A stretch of DNA of 32,136 bases from Planctomycetia bacterium (lineage in GTDB: Bacteria > Planctomycetota > Planctomycetia > Pirellulales > UBA1268), in NCBI GenBank assembly GCA_009924545.1, contig RFRL01000018.1:1-32136 (forward strand). Direction: 5' to 3'. The notes below the pieces were generated by a model. That model was given only the letters and a program-made list of their open reading frames with translations, had not been told where the DNA came from and did not search any database. Position numbers and translations under genes: made by a program. Positions 1 to 6,567 of this stretch are shown here, piece after piece. Positions within the stretch are counted from its first letter, which is position 1. Each line of letters opens with the position of its first letter.

Positions 1-887
1 GGCTCGGGGGGTGGCCGCAGCGCGAGGTGCTGCCGACGGGGTTCGGTCCGCTCGACCGACTGTTGCCCGCCGGGGGTGTGCACCGCGGTGCCCTGATCGA
101 GTGGATCGAAGACGGGGCTGGCACGGGTGCCACGGGTGGAACGACCGCCGGTGGGGTGACGGCACTGGCCTGCGCGGTCGCCTGCACGATCGCACGGCGA
201 TCGGCGGGAGCAACGGTCATCGTCATCGACCGCCGCGGTTGGTTTCACCCACCGGCGGTGTTGCCGTGGCTGAATAGCCGCGAAGCGCTCGATGGCCGCG
301 AAGCGCTCGATGGCCGCGAAGCGCTCGATGGCCGCGAAGCGCTGAATAGCCGCGAAGCGCTCGGTGGGATCAGCCCCAGCCATCTCCATGTCGCGCGGCC
401 GGCACGGGAGGATGACGAGATCTGGGCGATCGATCAGGCGCTCCGCTGCCCCGGTGTGGCGGCCGTGCTCGCCTGGCCCGGTCGCGTCCACCCCACCGCC
501 ATGCGCCGCTGGCAACTGGCGGCACGGTCGGGCGGCGCGGTGGGGCTGCTCGTCAGGCCGGCGCACACCCGCCGCGATCCCTCCTGGGCCGAGGCACGCG
601 TGCAGGTGACGCCCGCGGTGGCCCCGGCTGGGCAGCCGGCTGCTGGGCTGCAGGCCGATCTCGGCGTCCGCCGGCTGCGGGTGGCGCTCGTCGGTGGTCC
701 CTGGTGTGGCGGAGCCGGTACCCGTTGTGACGGCGAAGCGGAACGGTCGGACGAACTGCTCATCGACATGCGCACCGGACGGGAGCCGTTGCCCCACGAA
801 GCGGCGCTGTGTCACGGATCAGCAGGCCGGCAATCGAAAGCGCGCCGACACCAACTCCGGGAGGGATGGTCGTGCCGCGCTTCATGA
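1..887 (+). CDS. imuA: ImuA-like RecA-fold protein of the mutagenesis cassette (5' partial)
   Basis: The reading frame is open to the left edge and reads WPQREVLPTGFGPLDRLLPAGG from about base 12, which is the usual N-terminal region of ImuA/SulA-like proteins. The GTG at 27 is therefore probably internal and the true start lies outside the window. ImuA is a RecA-related accessory protein that works with ImuB and DnaE2 in damage-induced translesion synthesis; this role comes from family knowledge. The nucleotide-binding region (bases ~105-180) is a degenerate glycine/threonine-rich loop. It is followed by a hydrophobic strand VIVID and the segment IWAIDQALRCPGVAAVLAW. A five-copy hexapeptide repeat (bases 273-362) is inserted after the VIVID strand. 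The stop TGA (885-887) overlaps an in-frame ATG of imuB as ATGA, so translation is probably coupled. Any SOS box would lie upstream, out of view. Confidence 0.85.
   Translation, partial: LGGWPQREVLPTGFGPLDRLLPAGGVHRGALIEWIEDGAGTGATGGTTAGGVTALACAVACTIARRSAGATVIVIDRRGWFHPPAVLPWLNSREALDGREALDGREALDGREALNSREALGGISPSHLHVARPAREDDEIWAIDQALRCPGVAAVLAWPGRVHPTAMRRWQLAARSGGAVGLLVRPAHTRRDPSWAEARVQVTPAVAPAGQPAAGLQADLGVRRLRVALVGGPWCGGAGTRCDGEAERSDELLIDMRTGREPLPHEAALCHGSAGRQSKARRHQLREGWSCRAS
273..362 (+). repeat. Five 18-bp tandem repeats inside imuA
   Basis: Five contiguous 18-bp units start at 273, 291, 309, 327 and 345. The inner three read gatggccgcgaagcgctc with one terminal change; the outer two begin aatagc. 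In the imuA frame they encode NSREAL, DGREAL three times, then NSREAL. Near-identity of the units points to recent slippage or unequal exchange. The unit is a multiple of three, so copy-number change would lengthen or shorten a loop without breaking the frame. Confidence 0.95.
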
Positions 888-2854
888 CGATCTGGCTGCC
901 GCGGTGGCCCGTGCAGCGGCGGATCCTCGAACAGCCACACTGGCGGTCGGTGCCGCTGCTTGTCTGCCGCCAGCAGCGCCGGGGGGTGATGACGGTGGTG
1001 TCGTGGTGCCTGCCGCCAGTGCGGCCGAGTCTTGCGCCGCGAACCACCCGATCGGGCATGAAGTCCGGCGCTGTGAATGGCTGTGTGACTGGCAGGCCGC
1101 TTGGCCTGGCGGGCATGCCGCTTGGCTTGGCGGGCAGGCCGCTGAGCTTGGCGGGCATGCCGCTGAGCCTGGCGGGCATGCCGCTGGCCGAAGCGATGGA
1201 TGTGCTGGCGCGGTCGCACGGGGTGCAGGTCTGCCGCAGCGCCGTGATCGACCCCGACGATCCCTTGGCCGACCGCGAGGCACTCACGGTTCTGGCACGC
1301 TGGTGCCGCCGGTTCGCGCCGCTTGTATCCGTGGAGGAACCACGTGTCTCCGTGGAGGAACCACGTGTCTCCGTGGAGGAACCACGTGTCTCCGTGGAGG
1401 AACCACGTGGATCGGCGAGTGGTCCGGAGTGCATCCAACTCGACGTGAGCGGCACCGCCGGGTTCTTCGGCGGCGAAAATCGTCTGGCGCGGTTGGCGGT
1501 GTGGATCCTGGCGGGCCGGGGGATCCATGCCCGGGTGGCGATCGCCGACACCCCCGCCGCCTCCTGGGCCGCCGCCCACCACACCGCCACGCTCACGACC
1601 CTGCTTCATGAGCGGATGCCGGCGGATCGTCTGCCGGTCAAGCACGGTATTGCTGGTGCCAGCCGGGCGGTGGGGCGCGCCGGGTGGGCGGCCGGACGCT
1701 ACGTGGTGGTGCCGCCCGGTGAGACGGTGACGCTCCTGTCGCCACTGCCACCGGCGGCGCTGCGGCTGGCCGAGGACGACCTGCTGCGGCTGGCGGAACT
1801 GGGGATCGACACGATCGGCGGTGTGCTGCGGCTGCCGCGCGCGGAGCTCGCCGCGCGCTTCAGCCCCCTGCTCCACCGGCGGCTGGCGCAGTTCCGGGGA
1901 ACGATCGCCGAGCCGCTCACGCCACCCGCCGCCGACGAGTTGCCGCAGGCCCGCCATGCCTGGGAGGCACCGGTGCTCGTGCGCGATCTGCCCCGGGAGG
2001 CGCTCGAACGGCTCTTGCAGCAGCTCATTGCCGGGTGCGTGGCGCCGCTGGCAGCCGCCGGCCGTGGTGTCACCGCCCTGCAGGTGCGGTTCGAGCGACC
2101 GCGTTGGTGCCACGAGCAGCGCGAAGGAGGGTGGCGCGATGGACAACGGCATGGCGGGAACGGCCGATCGGCAGACGGGGATGAGGGCCCGACGGTGATC
2201 GACGTCGGACTCTACCGGCCATCGGCGTCGGTCGGCCACCTCGCCGATCTGGTGCGGCTGCGGATGGCACGCACCCCGCTGCCCCGGGAGATCGACGGCA
2301 TCGCAGTGGAGGTGCTGGCCGACGGGCAGGTGGTCACCAGGCAGCGCCTGCTGTTCGATGCCGGCGTGGAGACCGACTCGCAGGTGGGCATGCTGCTGGA
2401 TCGCCTGTCGGGCCGCCTGGGGCGTCGGTCCGTTTTCACCCCGCGGGCGGTGGCCGATGCCCAGCCGGAGCATGCCTGGATGCCGGCGCCACCGGTGCCG
2501 GCCGGCGGTGTGCCGTCGCGGCACCGTTCCCGTGAGACGCAGCAGCGGCCGGGGGGCGTGCATGGGCAGGTGCCGGCGGCCCCCCAGCGACGCCCGGTCT
2601 GGCTCATGCCGCGGCCACGGCGCCTGGAGGTGGTGTCGGTGGTGCCCGATGGGCCCCCGGTGCGCTTTCGCCGGCAGTCGCAGTGGCTCCGTGTGGTGCA
2701 GGCCCAGGGGGCGGAGCGGATCGAGACGGCCTGGTGGCGGGGGCCATGTGTGCGCCGCGACTACTGGATCGTCGAGATGGAATCGGGGGAGCGCTACTGG
2801 ATTTTCCGGCGCCTGCCGGATGGAGCGTGGTTCATCCACGGGCTGTTCGGCTGA
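872..2854 (+). CDS. imuB: ImuB, catalytically degenerate Y-family DNA polymerase
   Basis: ImuB is a Y-family polymerase homologue without catalytic residues that bridges DnaE2, ImuA and the sliding clamp. The N-terminus reads MTIWLPRWPVQRR where active family members have an Asp-containing strand, so the first metal ligand is absent. The palm segment LDVSGTAGFFGGE (bases ~1440-1475) and the segment ARVAIADTPAASWAAAHH are typical of ImuB, as is the end, with GPCVRRDYWIVE and FIHGLFG. LLDRLSGRLGRR (~2393-2428) is the conserved linker region. I chose GTG at 872 because GGAGGG (860-865) lies 6 nt upstream. ATG at 866 is too close to that site; ATG at 884 overlaps the imuA stop as ATGA and is the main alternative. 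Two 21-bp repeat arrays (1094-1177 and 1325-1408) interrupt the palm region. About 71 bp separate it from dnaE2, with no promoter seen. Confidence 0.9.
   Translation: MPRFMTIWLPRWPVQRRILEQPHWRSVPLLVCRQQRRGVMTVVSWCLPPVRPSLAPRTTRSGMKSGAVNGCVTGRPLGLAGMPLGLAGRPLSLAGMPLSLAGMPLAEAMDVLARSHGVQVCRSAVIDPDDPLADREALTVLARWCRRFAPLVSVEEPRVSVEEPRVSVEEPRVSVEEPRGSASGPECIQLDVSGTAGFFGGENRLARLAVWILAGRGIHARVAIADTPAASWAAAHHTATLTTLLHERMPADRLPVKHGIAGASRAVGRAGWAAGRYVVVPPGETVTLLSPLPPAALRLAEDDLLRLAELGIDTIGGVLRLPRAELAARFSPLLHRRLAQFRGTIAEPLTPPAADELPQARHAWEAPVLVRDLPREALERLLQQLIAGCVAPLAAAGRGVTALQVRFERPRWCHEQREGGWRDGQRHGGNGRSADGDEGPTVIDVGLYRPSASVGHLADLVRLRMARTPLPREIDGIAVEVLADGQVVTRQRLLFDAGVETDSQVGMLLDRLSGRLGRRSVFTPRAVADAQPEHAWMPAPPVPAGGVPSRHRSRETQQRPGGVHGQVPAAPQRRPVWLMPRPRRLEVVSVVPDGPPVRFRRQSQWLRVVQAQGAERIETAWWRGPCVRRDYWIVEMESGERYWIFRRLPDGAWFIHGLFG
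1094..1189 (+). repeat. Four 21-bp tandem repeats plus a partial unit in imuB
   Basis: Units begin at 1094, 1115, 1136 and 1157, with a partial unit from 1178. They encode RPLGLAG, MPLGLAG, RPLSLAG, MPLSLAG and then MPLAEA. The R/M alternation together with the G/S change suggests that a two-unit block was itself duplicated. The last unit runs into GMPLAEA, which resembles a segment present once in typical ImuB and DinB proteins, so the array looks like a multiplied conserved segment. Confidence 0.93.
1325..1408 (+). repeat. Four 21-bp tandem repeats in the imuB palm region
   Basis: Four units start at 1325, 1346, 1367 and 1388. Three are identical (gtctccgtggaggaaccacg plus t) and the first differs by one synonymous base (gta). 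They encode VSVEEPR four times, immediately before the palm motif LDVSG. The position matches the SIDE-type active-site strand of active Y-family enzymes, here degenerate as SVEE. Confidence 0.95.
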
Positions 2855-2925
2855 AGTGGTGGATGGAACCGGTGGGCTGAGCGGGTGGGCTGTTTGGGGG
2901 CGACGTTGGTGTGGGAGATGCCGTC

Positions 2926-5900
2926 ATGATCGAGCCCGACTATGCCGAACTGCACTGCAGGAGCAATTTTTCCTTCCTCCAGGCGGCGTCGCATCCGGAG
3001 GAGTTGATCCGCACGGCCGGTGCGCTCGGCTACCGGGCGCTGGCCATCACCGACCATGCGACCCTGGCGGGCATCGTGCGGGCCCATGGTGCCTGCAGGC
3101 AGGAGGGTGCTTGCCGACAAGAGGGTGCCTGCCGACAGGAAGGGGCTGGCGGGCAGGCGGGGTTGCAACTGGTCATCGGGGCGGCACTCGAGCCGCTCGA
3201 TGCCGCGGGGCTGGTCGTGTGGGTCGCCGATCGGCGGGGCTACGCCAACCTCTGCCGGCTGCTGACGCGGGGCTACGGAGTCGATCCTGTCTCCGGTAGT
3301 GTCACTGACGGCGGTAGTGTCACTGACGGCGGCAGTGTGAGCGGTGGCGGTGTCACCTGCCGGATCACGCTCGCCGACGTCGCCGCCCATGCCGAGGGAC
3401 TCCTGGTGGGGGTGCCGCTGGCGCCGCTGTGGGACGCGGGGGACGCGGACGGGGTGGAGGCCTCCTCCGCCCGGTGGAACGACGCCGTGGCAGCCGTGCG
3501 GCAGTGGCGCGAGGTGTTCGGCGAGCGGCTCTGCTGCCTGGCCGAGGTGGCCCGCGAGGGGGACGATGCCCAGCGGCTCTCGTGGTATGGGGAAGTGGCC
3601 CGGCGGGCGGGGGCGCCGGTGGTGGCGGCCGGCGACGTCCGCTGCCATGCGCGCAGCCGGCTGCCGCTGCTGCACGCCCTCACGGCGGTGCGGCACGGTG
3701 CGCCGATCGAGGAGATCCGCGGCCGGCTCCTCGCCAACGGTGAGCGGCATCTCCACGAGCGCTGGCGGATCGCGGAGCGGTTCGCCCCCCTGCCGGGCGC
3801 CGTCGCGCGCTCGGTGGAGTGGGCCGGGCGCTGCACGTTCACGCTCGACGAGCTGCGCTACGAGTATCCCGAATCGGTCGTGCCGCCGGGCTGCACGCCA
3901 CGCGAGCACCTCGGGCGCATGGTCTGGAAGGGGGCGCGGCAGCGCTATCCCGACGGCGTCCCGGAGAAGGTGCGCGAGCTCATCGAACACGAGTTGGCCC
4001 TCGTGGCCGAGCTGGGCTACGAGGCCTACTTCCTCACCGTGTTCGACATCGTGCGCTTCGCCCGGCGCCGCGGCATCCTCTGCCAGGGGCGCGGCTCGGC
4101 GGCCAATTCGGCGATCTGCTACTGCCTGGGGATCACCTCGGTCGATCCGGCCCGGCTCGACGTGCTCTTCGAGCGCTTCATCAGCCGCGAGCGGCGCGAG
4201 GCCCCCGACATCGACGTCGATTTCGAGCACCAGCGCCGCGAGGAGGTGATCCAGTACATCTACACCACCTACGGCCGCACTCGGGCGGCGATGACCGCCG
4301 AGGTGATCTGCTACCGCCTCCGCTCGGCCGTCCGCGACATGGGCAAGGCGCTGGGGCTGTCGCTCGACCGCGTGAACCGCATCGCCGAGGTGCTCGACGT
4401 GGGGGACGGCGCGGAGCGGCTCCCCGCCCGGTTGGCGGAGGCGGGGCTCGAGCCCACCGGCGAGACGGGTAGCCGGCTCGTGTCGCTCGTCGGGCAACTG
4501 GTCGGCTTCCCCCGCCATCTCGGCCAGCACGTCGGCGGCATGGTGATGACGCGCGGCGCGCTGTGCGACCTGGTGCCGATCCAGCCGGCGACGATGGACG
4601 GCCGCACGGTCGTGCAGTGGGACAAGAACGATCTCGACGAGCTGGGCATCCTCAAGGTCGATTGCCTCGCCCTGGGGATGCTCACGGCGATCCACCGGGC
4701 CTTCGACCTGGTGGCGGCGGCGGGCGGGCCGCAACTCTCGCTCGCCACCGTGCCGGCGGAGGATCCGCAGGTCTACGAGATGATCTCCCGGGCCGACACG
4801 GTGGGGGTGTTCCAGATCGAGAGCCGGGCGCAGATGAGCATGCTGCCCCGGCTCCAGCCGCGCTGCTTCTACGATCTGGTGATCGAGGTGGCGATCGTCC
4901 GCCCGGGGCCGATCCAGGGCGACATGGTGCATCCCTACCTGCGGCGGCGGGCCGGGGAGGAGACGGTCACCTATCCGAGCGACGCGATCCGCGACGTGCT
5001 GGAGAAGACGCTCGGCGTGCCCCTCTTCCAGGAGCAGGCGATGCGCCTGGCGGTGGTGGCAGCGGGATTCACCCCCGGCGAGGCCGACCAGTTGCGGCGG
5101 GCGATGGGGGCTTGGCGGCGGCCGGGTGTGATCGACGAGTTCCACCGCCGGCTCGTCGACGGCATGGTCGCCCGTGGCCTCTCCGCGGAGTTCGCCGAGC
5201 GGGTGTTCCAGCAGATTCGCGGTTTCGGCGAATACGGCTTCCCTGAGTCGCATGCCGCCAGCTTCGCCCTGCTGGTCTACGTGTCTGCCTGGCTCAAATG
5301 CCATCATCCGGCCGCCTTCACCGCGGCACTCCTGGCCAGCCAGCCGATGGGGTTCTACGCGCCGGCGCAGTTGGTGCGCGATGCCCGGCAGCACGGCGTG
5401 ACCGTGCTGCCGGTCGATGTGAATGCCAGTGGGTGGCATGCCGGGCTGGAGGTGACGCCGCGCCAGGACGGCGCTGGGCGGGGGAACGCGGCCCAGGGGC
5501 GCCGCAGGGCGGTTCCCGAGTTGGCGGTGCGCTCGGGGCCGGTGGTGCGCCTGGGGCTCGAACAGATCCATGGCTTGGGGGAGACGGCCGGGCGGCGGAT
5601 CGAAGCGGCCCGGCTGTCGGGGGCCGCAGCGGCCCGGCTGTCGGGGGCCGGGACAGCCGGGCGGCAGGTGCCGTTCCGGTTGGTTCACGAACTGGCCCGG
5701 CGGGCCGACCTCGACCGGGAGCAACTGTTGCATCTGGCCCGCGCTGGTGCTCTGGCGTCGCTGGGGCTCGATCGGCGGCGCGCGGTCTGGGAGGCGATGC
5801 GGCAGATCGACCGCACCGGCCGGCGACCGCTGCTCGATGCCTTGGAGGATGCCGATGCCGATGAAGCGCTACTTTCCGGGGGCCCGCCGGGGAGCGGCAC

Positions 5901-6567
5901 GGGTGCTGGGTCGCTGGACGGTGGGTCGATGGACGCTGGGTCGCTGGGCGGTGGGGCAACGGACGGTGGGGCAACGGACGGTGGGCGGCAGGTGGAGGGC
6001 AGTGCGGTGGTCCTGCCGGTGGCGAGCGCCCGGGAGGAAGTGATCGCCGATTACCGTGCCGTGGGGCTGTCGCTGGCGGATCACCCGCTGTCATTTGAAC
6101 GCCCGTGGCTCTCCGACCGGGGGGTGATCACGGCGGCGCAGGCCACGACCGCTCCGGAGGGGAGGCGCGTGTGCGTGGCGGGGATCGTGCTGGTGCGGCA
6201 GCGACCTGCCACCGCCAGCGGCATGCTGTTCCTCACGATCGAAGACGAGACCGGGGCGGCGAACGTCGTGGTGCGGCCGGCGGTGTGGGAAGCCGCCGAT
6301 CCGTCCGCCCGTCGGGCCGTGGTGCTCTTGGTGCATGGCCGGATCCAAAGGCGCGGCACGGTGGTGCACCTGCTGGCGACACGGCTGGAGGCCGCGCCGC
6401 AGTCGCGGGAGAGCGGCGGCTCGGGGCCGGTCACCTGCGACCCGAGGTCGGTCGCTGGTGGGGCGGTCGCTGGCGGGCAGGTAAGCGGTTACCCGGGACC
6501 GACGGCCGGCGGTGGGGATGGCGTCCGCCCCCCTGCCTTGCCGCGCATGTCGCGGGATTTCCGCTGA
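2926..6567 (+). CDS. dnaE2: DnaE2, error-prone DNA polymerase III alpha subunit
   Basis: This is the polymerase subunit of the ImuA-ImuB-DnaE2 mutasome. It has an N-terminal PHP domain (ELHCRSNFSFL near the start; ALAITDHATLAGIVRAH). The polymerase III catalytic motif PDIDVDF is at about residues 427-433. The DnaE2-type segment GEYGFPESHAASFALLVY lies at about 768-785, with ASQPMGFY after it. A C-terminal OB fold begins near residue 1082 (VAGIVLVRQRPA). ATG 2926 was chosen because GGGAG at 2913-2917 lies 8 nt upstream; GTG 2911 is the alternative. At about 1213 residues it is longer than the ~1050-1100 usual for DnaE2. The excess is largely six in-frame tandem-repeat or low-complexity insertions in loops. 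The stop overlaps an ATG in frame with purC (TGATG), but purC probably has its own promoter. Confidence 0.95.
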   Translation: MIEPDYAELHCRSNFSFLQAASHPEELIRTAGALGYRALAITDHATLAGIVRAHGACRQEGACRQEGACRQEGAGGQAGLQLVIGAALEPLDAAGLVVWVADRRGYANLCRLLTRGYGVDPVSGSVTDGGSVTDGGSVSGGGVTCRITLADVAAHAEGLLVGVPLAPLWDAGDADGVEASSARWNDAVAAVRQWREVFGERLCCLAEVAREGDDAQRLSWYGEVARRAGAPVVAAGDVRCHARSRLPLLHALTAVRHGAPIEEIRGRLLANGERHLHERWRIAERFAPLPGAVARSVEWAGRCTFTLDELRYEYPESVVPPGCTPREHLGRMVWKGARQRYPDGVPEKVRELIEHELALVAELGYEAYFLTVFDIVRFARRRGILCQGRGSAANSAICYCLGITSVDPARLDVLFERFISRERREAPDIDVDFEHQRREEVIQYIYTTYGRTRAAMTAEVICYRLRSAVRDMGKALGLSLDRVNRIAEVLDVGDGAERLPARLAEAGLEPTGETGSRLVSLVGQLVGFPRHLGQHVGGMVMTRGALCDLVPIQPATMDGRTVVQWDKNDLDELGILKVDCLALGMLTAIHRAFDLVAAAGGPQLSLATVPAEDPQVYEMISRADTVGVFQIESRAQMSMLPRLQPRCFYDLVIEVAIVRPGPIQGDMVHPYLRRRAGEETVTYPSDAIRDVLEKTLGVPLFQEQAMRLAVVAAGFTPGEADQLRRAMGAWRRPGVIDEFHRRLVDGMVARGLSAEFAERVFQQIRGFGEYGFPESHAASFALLVYVSAWLKCHHPAAFTAALLASQPMGFYAPAQLVRDARQHGVTVLPVDVNASGWHAGLEVTPRQDGAGRGNAAQGRRRAVPELAVRSGPVVRLGLEQIHGLGETAGRRIEAARLSGAAAARLSGAGTAGRQVPFRLVHELARRADLDREQLLHLARAGALASLGLDRRRAVWEAMRQIDRTGRRPLLDALEDADADEALLSGGPPGSGTGAGSLDGGSMDAGSLGGGATDGGATDGGRQVEGSAVVLPVASAREEVIADYRAVGLSLADHPLSFERPWLSDRGVITAAQATTAPEGRRVCVAGIVLVRQRPATASGMLFLTIEDETGAANVVVRPAVWEAADPSARRAVVLLVHGRIQRRGTVVHLLATRLEAAPQSRESGGSGPVTCDPRSVAGGAVAGGQVSGYPGPTAGGGDGVRPPALPRMSRDFR
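3088..3159 (+). repeat. Three exact and one degenerate hexapeptide repeat in the DnaE2 PHP domain
   Basis: Units of 18 bp start at 3088, 3106, 3124 and a decayed one at 3142. The first three all encode GACRQE although their DNA differs at several positions (gcc/gct, agg/cga, cag/caa, gag/gaa). Every difference is synonymous. The insertion sits between DHATLAGIVRAH and LQLVIGAAL, where related proteins have a short loop. Confidence 0.9.
3295..3348 (+). repeat. Three 18-bp tandem repeats (GSVTDG) in dnaE2
   Basis: Units begin at 3295, 3313 and 3331 and encode GSVTDG, GSVTDG and GSVSGG, followed by GVT. They lie in the PHP-domain loop between LLTRGYGV and the segment CRITLADVAAHAEG. The glycine/serine composition fits a flexible surface loop. 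Confidence 0.88.
5605..5652 (+). repeat. Two 24-bp tandem repeats (AARLSGA) in dnaE2
   Basis: Two adjacent 24-bp units (5605-5628 and 5629-5652) differ only in their last codon and encode AARLSGAA and AARLSGAG. They lie just before the helix-hairpin-like segment FRLVHELARRADLDREQLLHLARAGAL. Confidence 0.85.
5908..5982 (+). repeat. Five 15-bp tandem repeats in the dnaE2 linker
   Basis: Units start at 5908, 5923, 5938, 5953 and 5968. They encode GSLDG, GSMDA, GSLGG, GATDG and GATDG. They form a glycine/aspartate-rich linker between the DNA-binding region and the segment EEVIADYRAVGLSLADHPL that precedes the OB fold. Confidence 0.88.
6451..6480 (+). repeat. Two 15-bp units near the 3' end of dnaE2
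   Basis: Units 6451-6465 and 6466-6480 encode VAGGA and VAGGQ. They lie in the glycine-rich C-terminal tail of DnaE2, after the OB fold. This is the weakest array and is listed for completeness. Confidence 0.6.

Follow-up and report, generated by a model that had tools for sequence, protein, structure and literature searches.

An in-frame minisatellite in imuB within a repeat-rich imuA-imuB-dnaE2 cassette of a Planctomycetia bacterium

According to a survey, ImuB proteins are "quite variable": structural elements are frequently deleted, but the thumb, the little finger and ImuB-C are retained (PMC12926913). In-frame coding minisatellites are known from other bacterial genes, such as ftsK of E. 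coli and the genes of S. aureus surface proteins, which can contain as many as seven variable segments in frame (PMC2884548).

Here, we analyzed a stretch of 32,136 nucleotides (the window) from a Planctomycetia bacterium, in which the genes of the mutasome subunits ImuA, ImuB and DnaE2 carry such repeats. The window ImuB resembles known ImuB proteins in its Y-family fold, lost catalytic acids, QxxLF-type clamp motif, predicted C-terminal beta domain and gene order imuA-imuB-dnaE2, but differs from them in that its loops carry in-frame tandem repeats, and it falls below Pfam IMS detection. DinB/Dpo4 polymerases share the fold of ImuB, according to Foldseek and profile alignment, but DinB has no insertion before the catalytic D-E, whereas ImuB has one. 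As in the S. aureus and ftsK minisatellites, the repeated segments are short and in frame, lie in flexible protein regions and number several per gene; those cases, however, concern surface proteins or one long linker, while the arrays described here cluster in the cassette of a soluble DNA-damage mutasome. While the variability of ImuB was already known, the concentration of in-frame tandem arrays across the whole cassette is new, and our literature search found no paper treating both ImuB and tandem repeats.

The window belongs to a metagenome-assembled draft genome (G000; 4.36 Mb, 444 contigs, 93% complete), the only one of its species in this analysis, and the other comparisons are with congeners and relatives, among them the congener Planctomycetaceae bacterium F1-20-MAGs016 (G003; contig SXWA01000123.1). 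The own-genome background consisted of 1.04 Mb of sampled contigs, about a quarter of the genome, with the window excluded; replicative dnaE, sought there as a control, was absent from these contigs. Arrays were counted if TRF scored them at 70 or more and their period was a multiple of 3 between 9 and 60.

The imu cassette and its ImuB

The order imuA-imuB-dnaE2, found in window bases 1-6567, is the same in relatives, and the imuA stop overlaps the imuB start (ATGA) (Table 1). The window ImuB has no Pfam or NCBIfam match, and IMS (Pfam) is matched by 6 of 33 relatives. Since ImuB also gave no convincing match to the PDB by sequence, a fold comparison was needed. An AF2 model built with 33 sequences matches Dpo4, Dbh and DinB in Foldseek with E values from 1e-13 to 1e-10 (best 6jul, E 1e-13), and hhalign relates ImuB to DinB at 99%. 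The same model predicts an all-beta domain at residues 572-656, and a putative beta-clamp motif of the QxxLF type reads RQRLLF, with R487, Q488, L491 and F492 invariant in 33 ImuBs.

Judged from the hhalign register, ImuB lacks the catalytic acids, the D-E of SIDE being replaced by E183-C184, which agrees with the degeneracy proposed for this site in a preliminary description of the window. At the second acid site, where DinB has D-x-D, the ImuB N-terminus MTIWLPRW contains no aspartate, a comparison made by eye, residues 1-14 lying outside the hhalign match.

Two side observations concern the family. The genome has no match to IMS (PF00817), such that no DinB was detected in the assembly, as in most of the family. 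Besides, records titled Candidatus Kuenenia stuttgartiensis (L036, L039, L040 and L042) carry an imu cassette of the window's family, and L042 matches a locus of G019, a genome placed in that family, so these titles look mistaken.

Table 1. Genes, in-frame arrays and aligned positions in the imu cassette (window coordinates)
Feature	Position	Strand	Evidence and remarks
imuA	3..887	+	5' end lost at contig edge, start missing; NCBIfam ImuA_translesion 81.5 bits, E 7e-23, under curated cut-off 150
imuA array SREALDG..., 18 bp x 5.1, in-frame	277..367	+	TRF; homologous 3-copy array in G003
imuB	884..2854	+	ATG 884, stop 2852-2854; catalytically dead Y-family subunit; clamp-type motif QRLLF at residues 488-492
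imuB array GMPLxLA, 21 bp x 4.8, in-frame	1091..1189	+	copies start of conserved AGMPLAEAMD helix; loop 60-93 with pLDDT < 50
imuB array 4 x VSVEEPR, 21 bp units	1325..1408	+	ImuB residues 149-176; turn before SIDE-strand counterpart
GPECIQLD, single-copy SIDE-strand counterpart (DinB SLDEAFLD)	1421..1444	+	hhalign, family alignment, AF2 strand 184-187
Positions of catalytic D-E, ImuB E183-C184	1427-1432	+	hhalign register; downstream of array
dnaE2	2926..6567	+	error-prone polymerase; PDIDVDF motif; NCBIfam PRK05672 1328 bits; Pfam
dnaE2 array GACRQE, 18 bp x 2.8, in-frame, PHP domain	3088..3137	+	TRF; G003 repeat at site is AAKEQR
dnaE2 array GSVTDG, 18 bp x 2.5, in-frame	3294..3338	+	TRF
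dnaE2 array AARLSGAA, 24 bp x 2, in-frame	5604..5650	+	TRF
dnaE2 array, Gly-rich linker, 30 bp x 2.7, in-frame	5905..5985	+	TRF

The VSVEEPR array and its turn

The four VSVEEPR units announced in the preliminary description are present in the imuB frame, both in the sequence and in TRF (1324-1409, period 21, 4.1 copies, 98% matches, score 165). Comparison of the 21-mers starting at 1323, 1344, 1365 and 1386 confirmed that three copies, the second to fourth, are identical in DNA, whereas the first shows two base differences, a synonymous one within the unit (GTA/GTC) and another in the codon before it; the recent expansion read from this identity is likewise supported. With near-identical tandem units whose length is divisible by 3 and with an unbroken frame, the array belongs with coding minisatellites, and congeners differ in unit and length at its site. 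Chance was excluded by shuffling the codons of the three cassette genes 500 times, which yielded only 4 arrays scoring at least 70, the best reaching 75 against 165. G+C is 60% in the array and 72% in the cassette. A dispersed repeat family was rejected, since a genome-wide search allowing up to 2 mismatches gave no other occurrence of the 21-mer.

Alignment by hhalign of 37 planctomycete ImuBs with 9 Y-family polymerases from relatives in the same order (E 4e-18 to 6e-20) pairs DinB FTPLVEPLSLDEAFLDV with ImuB FAPLVSVE...GPECIQLDV. In this register, the array is an insertion between the DinB segments TPLVEP and SLDE, and because the counterpart of the acids comes after it, the unit is a copy of the last part of the strand before the array (VSVE) plus the turn (EPR). 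An alignment of 35 relatives gives the same layout, FAPLV(A/S)(V/L/I)E followed by a site of 0-30 residues and then PEC(I/L)(H/Q)(V/L)DV(T/S)GT, in which PECI(H/Q)(V/L)DV is conserved in most relatives whether an array is present or absent. Relatives carry a single unit at the same place, VA(V/L/I)E. From TP to the acids, the spacing ranges from 9 to 39 in ImuB, but no insertion interrupts the corresponding DinB motif, TPxVEPxSxDE. The loss of an active site may thus leave behind a hotspot of insertion at a position that is free of insertions in active DinB relatives.

The predicted structures place the array in the same turn. In the AF2 model with the array, strand 149-151 is followed by residues 152-183 without regular structure (block mean pLDDT about 52-70) and by strand 184-187, units 2-4 falling in a low-confidence loop; in the model of an array-less relative (L011), strands 116-119 and 126-129 are separated by a six-residue turn. 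In the same ImuB turn, the congener G003 carries SGIAASGGIPAASSRASGGIAAASGRASGG, with a 33-bp repeat unrelated to VSVEEPR, and G002 is longer by 12 residues that form no repeat, which argues that the turn was lengthened independently.

Arrays and gaps across the cassette

Seven in-frame arrays lie within the 6.6 kb of the cassette, compared with 45 in the 1.04 Mb of own-genome contigs, a density about 25 times background. Against an expectation of 0.29 arrays the Poisson P is 2e-8, a value that somewhat overstates the case, as the repeats were what drew attention to the cassette. The densest other sampled 6.6-kb window contains 2 arrays, and the remaining 25.5 kb of our window, flanking genes included, contains 0 at a score of at least 70; within the quarter of the genome that was sampled, tandem repeats are thus most clearly concentrated in the cassette. 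In G003, 6 arrays occur in the 4.3 kb of cassette sequence analyzed versus 0.33 expected, while in other relatives the cassette excess over flanking DNA is only 2.5-fold (P 0.01). The units often copy the edge of an adjoining conserved element, as with LAGMPL before AGMPLAEAMD in the window and GSGGPTVF before GGPTVIDV in G003; the imuA SREAL array is common to both species, with a different copy number.

Length variation follows the same genes. Among 54 reciprocal-best orthologue pairs of G000 and G003, ImuB (16.8%), ImuA (14.9%) and DnaE2 (9.7%) have the three highest gap fractions, against a median of 0.9%, and the probability that these three named genes occupy the top three places by chance is 4e-5. 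In six other genera of the family, median gaps are 14.4% for imuA, 6.5% for imuB, 2.8% for dnaE2 and 0.3% for the flanks. Across the family, the cassette genes accumulate gaps at about 10 to 50 times the rate of their neighbours. The overall identity of DnaE2 is near that of the flanking genes, yet its gaps are in excess, and dnaE2 gaps exceed those of identity-matched flanking genes with P = 5e-8, an indicative value because pairs within a genus are not independent. Since DnaE2, with its PDxDxDF motif, has these excess gaps, the pattern cannot be explained by lost ImuB catalysis alone.

Further repeats were observed in relatives. The G003 cassette (L112/L035) carries six in-frame arrays, among them PQAGR/H x5, GSGGPTVF x5 and ASGGAAAASGR x3 in ImuB. 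A G002 locus (L099) has 9.5 copies of a GGGLA-type repeat (4396-4538), located upstream of the conserved imuA region, and WGKEG x6 within imuA (5405-5499). Elsewhere in the order, imu cassettes from other genera and families carry more in-frame arrays, in L119 (G025), L109/L110 (G034, G020), L124 (G019), L131 (G050) and L136 (G058).

Origin of the array

We consider the array, with a probability of about 0.7, to be a recent in-frame minisatellite in imuB and one case of slippage-type duplication tolerated in the loops of the cassette. A 21-bp stretch, spanning the turn and the last part of the palm strand (PLVSVE) before it, would first have been duplicated and later amplified to four copies, presumably through replication slippage or unequal recombination, so that the turn before the SIDE counterpart would have grown from about 6 to about 32 residues with the strand itself unaltered. 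The site may be tolerant because ImuB is a non-catalytic scaffold, relaxed constraint being the probable cause, and the turn, which lies next to the former active site, may be free because catalysis was lost; insertion tolerance in a dead polymerase is thus plausible from the alignments. In this sense, the earlier proposal of a motif freed from catalytic constraint is plausible for the site, whose length is variable in ImuB but constant in DinB, but is not the whole story, given that dnaE2, with PDxDxDF, also has arrays, which the loss of ImuB catalysis does not account for. Cassette-wide, loops of ImuA, ImuB and DnaE2 may gather in-frame duplications as parts of a conditional mutasome that would be held together by core folds and binding motifs rather than by loop length. 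The density of about 25 times background in the genus, against 2.5 times in other relatives, could reflect a raised local duplication rate or selection beyond tolerance.

Selection would act if array copy number tuned mutasome assembly or mutagenesis, a slow, contingency-like variation of loop length in which the frame is never broken. All frames are indeed intact, the arrays cluster strongly in one functional cassette in both G000 and G003, and the three genes lead the gap ranking with an excess that extends across the family. However, relaxed constraint predicts the same picture, and the units, apart from SREAL in imuA, are unlike between sites or species, so that we regard adaptive variation as unlikely. 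If selection rather than tolerance did explain the gaps, a mutation-making complex would be tunable by repeats. The stronger version, in which the cassette of this lineage is a repeat-driven hypervariable locus whose arrays expand and contract in the loops of all three subunits under selection, copy number thereby tuning the mutation machinery, is highly doubtful.

Improbable as well is a cassette DNA that produces tandem duplications more often, owing to hairpin-prone units or to its own error-prone synthesis. Each VSVEEPR unit can be folded as a CGTGG-AGGAA-CCACG hairpin, the array (1323-1409) forming a row of four, and its dimer is stabler than 93% of GC-matched random dimers. Over 69 arrays, however, the units are no more stable than GC-matched random dimers (mean rank 0.51, KS P 0.66); hairpin-driven expansion was therefore rejected as a general cause. 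Moreover, the flanking genes of the window lack arrays of such score, and the arrays sit in length-variable loops, not in conserved cores.

The preliminary description had read the unit as a decayed SIDE catalytic strand amplified after catalysis was lost, a reading in keeping with an acidic unit placed directly before the SIDE counterpart, but now very improbable, as it is contradicted by the profile alignment, the family alignment and the AF2 model, all of which leave PECIQLD, in single copy, as the only counterpart. The array occupies a predicted loop and is not a catalytic relic, even though it directly adjoins the counterpart of the SIDE strand. Least credible is a metagenome assembly artefact, which a draft in hundreds of contigs might suggest, since the array, at 86 bp, is under ordinary read length, its copies hold one fixed difference and an independent genome has a different array in the same turn.

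Arrays of 14, 17, 23 and 44 bp, which are not multiples of 3 and are probably intergenic, were also observed (L140, L179, L192 and L178), suggesting that minisatellites are made genome-wide in the genus.
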